From: Methanomethylovorans hollandica DSM 15978
GTDB taxonomy: Archaea; Halobacteriota; Methanosarcinia; Methanosarcinales; Methanosarcinaceae
Length of the DNA: 64,000 nucleotides
Assembly: GCF_000328665.1 (NCBI RefSeq)
Contig: NC_019977.1
Span: forward strand, 2,038,011 to 2,102,010
Reading direction: 5' to 3'
The notes beneath the pieces are model-generated. The model saw only the letters and a program-made list of their open reading frames with translations. It was not told the DNA's origin and ran no database searches. A program made the position numbers and the translations under genes. Shown in pieces: positions 40,315-49,867 of the stretch; position 1 is the stretch's first letter; each line of letters starts with the position of its first letter.

Positions 40315-40448
40315 ACAAACAGTATATTGTTTTAACAATATATATATATATATTTAGTATTGAGTTGTGTGGAGAACTTCTTTTGTAGAATAGACGTAAT
40401 TCATCCACCGTTTGAAAACGGTGGTCTTCTTACTCCAACATGATAAAC

Positions 40449-42299: not shown

Positions 42300-42323
42300 A
42301 AACTGGTATGATCATACCAGTTT
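42300..42323 (-). terminator. Terminator hairpin overlapping the mtrH stop codon
   Basis: A perfect 24-bp palindrome (arms AAACTGGTATGA / TCATACCAGTTT) contains the mtrH TGA. On the minus strand two runs of T follow. This is the only strong terminator-like signal after the eight mtr genes, and it sits between convergent genes. Confidence 0.6.
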
Positions 42324-45621: not shown

Positions 45622-46374
45622 TTACATACCTCCTATGGTGACCACTGCCAGAACAGCACAGAGAAGGGTAACGACTAAAGAAGTGATCGCTGCCTTTGGC
45701 CATTTCTTGAACTTCGGGTCATGGAAACCTTCTATGGTTCCTCCAATGTTGTATGATGGAATAACCGCGTTCATGAAGAATATACCTACTGCGAAAATAC
45801 TGGCAAGGCCCACCAGTTGATGACCTGTTGCACTCATGATATCCTTAATGGTCAATCCTGCAGCAACTTCTCCCATCTTCAGCAGTGCATAATAAACAGT
45901 GCCTCCGCCAAGTCCTCCAAGCCCTGCTCCGATAACACCGCTCACAAATGAAACGGTTGGGATCGCATGGCCTTCAGTACCCTGGGATATGTAAAGGTCC
46001 TGCCTGTCCTTTGTTATAGGGTCGTATTTTACTTTTGCTGATGCTGCGGGACAACCCACACCATAGAAGTAGACCCATTGACCTACAATCATGGTAACAG
46101 CTATCATGATCATACCACCCACTGCACCTGAGGCAAGCACCAATCCAATATTATCAGTAACGCCCATCATTGAACCTGCTGTGACCAGGCCTGTAAGACC
46201 TGCTCCGGCAGCCAATTGCACGGTACCTGTTCCGATACCGGTTGCCTGGGCCATTGCAGCTGGCGCACCGCCTACTGGCACGAAGTGAACGCTAACAGAT
46301 ACAAGGACACCTCCGAGGGTGATAAGCAACATATACATTATGTTATCTGCAATTAATCCTACTATATCTATCAT
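45622..46374 (-). CDS. mtrD: Methyl-H4MPT:coenzyme M methyltransferase subunit MtrD
   Basis: A 250-residue membrane subunit with about six hydrophobic helices, beginning [20 protein letters not shown]. It has glycine-rich segments ([31 protein letters not shown]) and a conserved cytoplasmic loop with [19 protein letters not shown]. It overlaps mtrE by four bases. It is part of the Na+-translocating core. Confidence 0.95.
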
Positions 46375-47276
46375 GCTGCTTCCTCTTTATCTTCTTTGTA
46401 GGGACCGAATGCTTTCCTTGCCTGGATTTCGATCTTTCTGTTATAGATGATCATAATGAAGACAATGAGAGCTCCTGCAATAACAGACTCCCATCCGGCC
46501 GTGGGGCCTTTTGACGGATCGAAAACAGTAGTTATCCATCCACTAAGGAAGACTGTCATACCAAAGGCAATACCCGTTACAGGTCCTCCGAACTTTGCAC
46601 AGAACCAGGAATTATCCATACTGCTCCTGATCCCGGATTCTGCCTTTCTTACGATCTTACCGGAGTTTGCGGTGTTAAGACCGGAACCGAACTCCACATC
46701 CTGGAACTCACGCTCGGCACCATAGTGCACATCACCTGTGGATGAGCCGATAGCGCCAACGGTGATACCCCATATGAATGCCAGTAGCGGAAGCGGGAAG
46801 GGATGAGCAAAAACAGTCATCATTAAGTAAGATACTACAAGAATAGAGAATGTTGTTATGAATGAGTATCCCATTATTGCCGGCGTGTGAGAACGCAGCA
46901 CATCAAGGTATACCATCTGTTTGAAACGTTTCTGGCTGGAGCATCTGCCCATGTATGAAGTTACTGCATATGTTCCGTGTACCATGGCTGCGACCAGTGA
47001 TCCTATGGTCAGTGCAAGCACTGCGGAAAAGTTGGCGTTCAACATAACATAAGCTATAGTTCCACCGATAGCACACATAAGAGCGTTCGATGGTGGTTCT
47101 CCAGAAATGGCTTTATTATAGATCCTGTGTGGATACGACATCTGGGGCGCAAGTTGCACTTGAGAGTTAGGGTTACTCTGAGATCCGATATCGGATTCCA
47201 GATCTTCTGATGCACCTGCTATGGTAGCAGCAGCACCCATAAGTGCTAACGCGCCCATGCCTATGAGCGGGTCCAT
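46371..47276 (-). CDS. mtrE: Methyl-H4MPT:coenzyme M methyltransferase subunit MtrE
   Basis: A 301-residue membrane subunit, starting [37 protein letters not shown]; this segment is the classical MtrE N-terminus with a conserved acidic site proposed to take part in Na+ transport. About six membrane helices follow. The frame stays open upstream to 47348, but a GGAGG motif lies directly before the ATG at 47276, which fixes the start. It is the first gene of mtrEDCBAFGH. Confidence 0.97.
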
Positions 47277-47367
47277 ATATTTTCCTCCTACATCTTTGTC
47301 TTCTGATTGTGAATTAATTCTATTATATGGATAATATTTGTCCATCATATAGTAAGTAGTGTCAATG

Positions 47368-47385
47368 ATGGTAATATATTACCAT
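47368..47385. promoter_or_regulatory. Perfect 18-bp palindrome at the predicted mtr transcription start
   Basis: ATGGTAATATATTACCAT is a perfect inverted repeat. It lies about 26 to 50 bases downstream of the TATA box, so transcription would begin at or beside it. It could be an operator for a dimeric repressor, or a hairpin at the 5' end of the mRNA. Confidence 0.5.
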
Positions 47386-47410
47386 TCGCTGAAATTGAAG
47401 ATACTGTCTC

Positions 47411-47418
47411 ATTATAAA
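47411..47418 (-). promoter_or_regulatory. Probable TATA box of the mtr operon
   Basis: The minus strand reads CGAAAGGTTTATAATGAG; the purine-rich part resembles a BRE and TTTATAAT a TATA box. Transcription would start near 47388, about 110 bases before mtrE. Confidence 0.55.
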
Positions 47419-47680
47419 CCTTTCGAAGAAAAACTCGCATTGCATAGAGCTATTTTTTATCTTAGTTATATTATAATTAGAGATATGTCAGAACATTACA
47501 TATGACAGTAGAGTTTAAATACTACTATACGCTTTTGTCTAGGCCAACCGGATTTTTAAAATATTCAAATTCTAGAATATAGAAGTTTTTTCTGCGTGTG
47601 CCCTGTTAAATACAAAGCCTATGGTACATTTTGGCAGTCAACCACAAATATCTTATTACCAGGATATCACCTGATAGTAT

Positions 47681-49756: not shown

Positions 49757-49867
49757 GCATAAAACACCAACTATATGTATCTTGCTGAAACTTGCCCGAG
49801 AATATCTTAAATACAAGAGATAGAAATATTATAAAATATATATATGCATATATATATACCCAGAGTT

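Follow-up and report, generated by a model that had tools for sequence, protein, structure and literature searches.

The promoter and the palindrome at the predicted mtr start

The mtrEDCBAFGH operon, which encodes the sodium-pumping methyltransferase of methanogenesis (Mtr), lies on the minus strand of the window analysed here, i.e., the whole 64,000-nucleotide stretch of Methanomethylovorans hollandica DSM 15978 (the source species). Reading along this strand, the first gene is preceded by the BRE, the TATA box, a perfect palindrome, a variable stretch, and a ribosome binding site, with the following coordinates.

47419-47425, minus strand: BRE of the mtr promoter, CGAAAGG, read from the sequence and conserved across the family
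47411-47418, minus strand: TATA box of the mtr promoter, TTTATAAT, read from the sequence and conserved within the genus as well as in other genera
47368-47385, no strand: perfect 18-bp palindrome ATGGTAATATATTACCAT, from the sequence, the searches of the window and genome, and a Markov expectation
47376-47383, minus strand: 5' strand of helix 1, GGUAAUAU, the left arm of the palindrome, from the alignment fold
47365-47371, minus strand: 5' strand of helix 2, CCAUCAU, overlapping the right arm of the palindrome, from the alignment fold
47342-47348, minus strand: 3' strand of helix 2, AUGAUGG, from the alignment fold
47330-47337, minus strand: 3' strand of helix 1, AUAUUAUC, from the alignment fold
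47284-47289, minus strand: ribosome binding site AGGAGG, not part of the conserved stem, read from the sequence and invariant in the genus
46371-47276, minus strand: mtrE, first gene of the operon (which runs to 42312), with its start corrected from 47348

The correction of the mtrE start concerns an open reading frame beginning at 47348, which results artefactually from an in-frame ATG further upstream and was rejected because the extension runs into stop codons or frame shifts in the relatives; the true start is the ATG at 47276, with AGGAGG before it. The arrangement of the BRE and TATA box predicts that transcription begins at approximately 47385-47390, and the promoter call of the earlier note, which had placed the start near 47388, is sound as a prediction from these two elements. 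Neither a mapped mtr start for Methanomethylovorans nor an mtr leader motif was found in the literature searched.

The palindrome is exactly as the earlier note had described it, both in its symmetry and in its location at the predicted start, some 92-109 nt ahead of the mtrE start codon. Nothing else in the window matches it at up to three mismatches, and the search of the 2.71-Mb genome likewise returned no second copy at up to two mismatches. Given an order-1 Markov model of the same composition, 0.32 perfect palindromes of at least 18 bp are expected per 64 kb, and four were observed, two of which are simple AT repeats (49836-49857, 22 bp, and 40337-40354, 18 bp). As a bare sequence object, the palindrome is unusual only to a mild degree, and it is the location at the predicted start that is striking.

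Conservation and predicted folding of the leader within the genus

The mtr upstream regions of five Methanomethylovorans species, including the source species, were aligned. The sixth genome of the genus (G004, listed as 95% complete and carrying mcrB) returned no mtrE match, which is probably due to an assembly gap. The stretch from the TATA box to the start is strongly conserved in the genus, and at the palindrome an invariant TTCAATTTCAGCGAATGGTAATATA is followed by a short variable segment and then by an invariant ACCATCATT. This segment reads TT in the source species and CT in three of the sisters, and the fifth species (G005) has ATA, which is one base longer. The C found in three of the four sister species disrupts a central pair of the palindrome, while G005 has an altered half-site, AACCAT, and a gap lengthened to seven bases by the inserted base. 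The half-sites ATGGTA and TACCAT are kept with their six-base gap in four of the five species, and the perfect symmetry is restricted to the source species, being found in none of the four sisters.

Folding of the alignment pairs each arm of the palindrome with a segment further downstream. The left arm forms helix 1 with a strand located approximately 40 nt downstream, and the strand overlapping the right arm forms helix 2 with AUGAUGG. All 15 pairs of the two helices are possible in all five species. Among the 56 columns spanned, all 30 paired columns are invariant, compared with 11 of the 26 unpaired ones (p=4.8e-7), and the same test on the 3' strands alone gives p=1.4e-4, both values being optimistic in that the helices were picked on the same alignment. 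With every paired column invariant, the helices offer no covariation within the genus.

The column-shuffle test provides a further line of evidence, given that the initial 75 nt of the genus leader fold with z -3.8 (0 of 200 shuffles being as stable), against values of +0.3, -1.3, and +0.3 for the control stretches in the promoter and upstream of it. On its own, the source-species leader is no more stably folded than its shuffles (z -0.8). No Rfam covariance model matched the stretch of the window at E values of up to 5, and an Rfam scan of 13 loci returned chance matches only.

In the source species, the isolated helices are predicted at -12.4 kcal/mol, compared with -5.6 kcal/mol for the palindromic hairpin. 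Numbering the four strands from the 5' end, the leader may pair either 1:2, which is the palindrome folding on itself, or 1:4 together with 2:3, and when the remainder of the leader is also allowed to fold, this latter arrangement is favoured by 1.4-3.5 kcal/mol in all five species. The earlier note had also suggested a hairpin at the 5' end of the mRNA, and while an RNA fold is supported, its pairing is a different one, both arms being predicted to pair further downstream rather than mainly with one another.

A probable structured 5' leader and the alternative readings

We consider it probable (at approximately 0.62) that the mtrEDCBAFGH mRNA carries a structured leader of some 110 nt, with the palindrome as its 5' portion, a reading drawn from comparison of sequences and their predicted folds. 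In all five species, both arms of the palindrome can pair with later segments of the leader to give an imperfect stem interrupted by variable loops. This stem would be located a few nucleotides from the 5' end of the mRNA and would leave the ribosome binding site free, and, given these two features, it would most likely shield the 5' end from decay, or tune the passage of the polymerase or the loading of the ribosome, possibly with the involvement of an RNA-binding protein. The best reading of the fold is, then, that it works through the stability of the mRNA, its elongation, or its translation. The perfect symmetry of the DNA would be mostly a side effect of the RNA fold, since strands 1 and 2 are mutually complementary, which makes the weaker 1:2 hairpin possible, and it is a single base, unlike that of the sister species, that makes the symmetry perfect in the source species.

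Alternatively, the palindrome may be a DNA operator for a dimeric regulator, as the earlier note had also proposed. Under this reading, the regulator would recognise ATGGTA-N6-TACCAT at the start site and thereby repress or tune the transcription of mtr. The placement at the predicted start, the retention of both hexamer half-sites and of the six-base gap in four of the five species, and the strong conservation from the TATA box to the start are all consistent with such a site. On the other hand, one half-site and the spacing are lost in G005, the centre varies on one side only, and the invariant downstream strands are left unexplained. A genome search for TGGTA-N6-TACCA found seven sites, compared with two in the control, although two of the seven are the palindrome itself and the end of mtrH, and the remaining five are mostly inside genes (four, with one intergenic), so that no regulon of related sites was found. 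A dedicated operator with a single site and no regulon is possible. The earlier note had itself named absence from close relatives as refuting, and for the symmetrical site this is largely what is observed. With its symmetry restricted to the source species, broken in G005, and accompanied by no regulon, the proposal is weakened, and we regard an operator as unlikely.

The site at the end of mtrH belongs to a second palindrome, AAACTGGTATGATCATACCAGTTT, a perfect one of 24 bp at 42300-42323, which overlaps the mtrH stop codon between convergent genes and has TGGTA-N6-TACCA in common with the palindrome at the mtr start. It may form a hairpin at the transcript end, although it is not followed by a T run on the mtr strand.

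A simpler RNA reading is that the palindrome folds on itself at the 5' end (a 7-bp stem with a 4-nt loop), and that this hairpin alone matters. At least five of its pairs are possible in all five species, and the predicted ensemble is mixed, with the palindromic hairpin reaching a probability of 0.29 in the source species and 0.53 in one sister (G001). The innermost pair is, however, disrupted in four of the five species, and in every species the long stem is the more stable of the two, which makes the hairpin distinctly unlikely to be the element that matters.

The two pairings may also be combined in a bistable switch, in which 1:2, the palindrome, would form first during transcription and would later be replaced by 1:4 and 2:3, with a signal such as the state of methyl or cobamide metabolism tipping the balance and thereby setting the mtr output. 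We hold this to be a long shot of much the same low standing; if true, it would represent an undescribed regulatory RNA on the operon responsible for sodium pumping in methanogenesis, and leaders of other sequence across the Methanosarcinaceae would be its counterparts. Attenuation of the terminator type was rejected for the source species, in whose mtr leader no terminator-like site was found.

An accidental palindrome in an AT-rich leader, with no function besides that of the promoter, would be in keeping with the 0.32 such palindromes expected per window and with the unremarkable folding of the source-species leader when taken alone. This reading is very unlikely, given that it has to contend with paired columns that are invariant amid variable loops and with consensus folds that reach z-scores near -4 in four genera. 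Finally, mtr could be controlled by translation of a leaderless mini-ORF, MVIYYHH, from the AUG of the palindrome, which lies near the predicted 5' end. In three species a stop codon comes directly after MVIYYHH, and the one codon change among them, UAU/UAC, is synonymous. The mini-ORF is, however, not kept in the other two, where the frame extends to 31 codons (G003) or stops after three (G005), and this reading was rejected as highly improbable.

Predicted folded leaders in the family and in known systems

Approximately 100 mtr upstream regions of the Methanosarcinaceae were compared. Most of those from other genera share the promoter, and their leaders, roughly 105-150 nt long, differ in sequence. 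Just downstream of this promoter, the consensus folds are significant in most of these genera, with the first 75 nt reaching z -4.0 to -4.3 by column shuffles in three of them (g5, g3, and g8), while g4 reaches z -3.7 over the whole leader and g9 less (z -2.8). The control stretches are mostly near zero, with the exception of the g4 upstream stretch (z -4.0), and the reverse strand scores well in some genera, equalling the forward strand in g5, so that the column-shuffle test leaves the strand undecided.

In the stem of the Methanosarcina-type group, 92.5% of the cells are paired, against 17-61% when it is slid, and three sequences of this group carry an apparently compensatory change from C-G to U-A. 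For g5, the corresponding values are 92% against 30-56%, with covariation little beyond that of the shuffles. A covariance model built for g5 matches the leaders of g3 and g14, and weakly that of g9, but did not find the Methanomethylovorans leader. Judging by these predicted folds, folded mtr leaders are widespread in the family, whether or not the folds share a common descent.

Other symmetrical elements were observed in these regions. A GGATT-N6-AATCC dyad, which a simple pattern search detected in 13 of the 104 leaders, lies between the TATA box and the predicted start in some other genera (L017, L024, and similar loci), i.e., upstream of the transcript. In addition, a palindrome, TTATTAACATGTTAATAA or TTATTACATGTAATAA, stands directly before the ribosome binding site in Methanosarcina-type leaders (L024, L031, and similar loci) and is absent from Methanomethylovorans.

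The mcr leader of Methanomethylovorans (loci L129-L134, before mcrB), of approximately 105 nt, folds more strongly than that of mtr (z -5.1, 0 of 300 shuffles being as stable), and a structured leader is therefore not peculiar to mtr in this genus. The two leaders are alike in being folded and in having a stem that begins with AUGG near the predicted 5' end, although the mcr leader has another sequence and a branched consensus fold, and the likeness need not reflect common descent. Its closing stem is AUGGAAAA:UUUUCCAU in most species. A stem pattern shared by the two, ATGGWAANAT...TWTCCAT, has 15 matches in six genomes, compared with four in the control, and three of the 15 are in mtr or mcr leaders.

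To our knowledge, the control of the level of mtr expression is poorly known. The conserved leader fold offers a concrete target at the RNA level and argues against seeking a dedicated DNA-binding regulator from the symmetry alone, and, given that the mcr leader is folded as well, control at the RNA level could be general among the core operons of methanogenesis.

Previous studies of mtr expression are of relevance here. In Methanosarcina acetivorans, a fusion carrying the promoter and ribosome binding site of M. barkeri mtrE was weak, a stronger ribosome binding site made it weaker still, and the use of mcrB sequence for all but the last 30 bp resulted in a fourfold rise, for which the authors propose an attenuator- or riboswitch-like mRNA structure (PMC11409679). 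The mcrB swap altered the promoter and the leader together, so that the effect of the leader is not isolated. Between substrates, the M. acetivorans mtr genes show a 2.3-fold difference (PMC2838876), and long leaders are usual in the Methanosarcinaceae (PMC5378194, PMC2838876).

Among known systems, hairpins in the 5' UTRs of Methanococcus maripaludis (9-13 bp, targets of the RNA chaperone TRAM0076) affect reporter expression (PMC6705878) and are archaeal leader hairpins, as in mtr, although they belong to another order, to shorter leaders, and are terminator-like, unlike anything in the mtr leader. The mtaA and mtaC mRNAs of a cold-adapted methanogen are similar to mtr in the length of their 5' UTRs, which are said to aid transcript stability (PMC5378194), although these are other genes, likened by description and not by sequence or structure. 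One other comparison is with the 5' leader of the Methanosarcina cdh operon, which encodes CO dehydrogenase/acetyl-CoA synthase (Anderson et al. 2009, cited in PMC5112694). This is a different operon, likened to mtr by the title of that paper alone and not by sequence, fold, or mechanism, but its leader is also long, belongs to a methanogenesis operon from the same family, and, according to that title, regulates expression.
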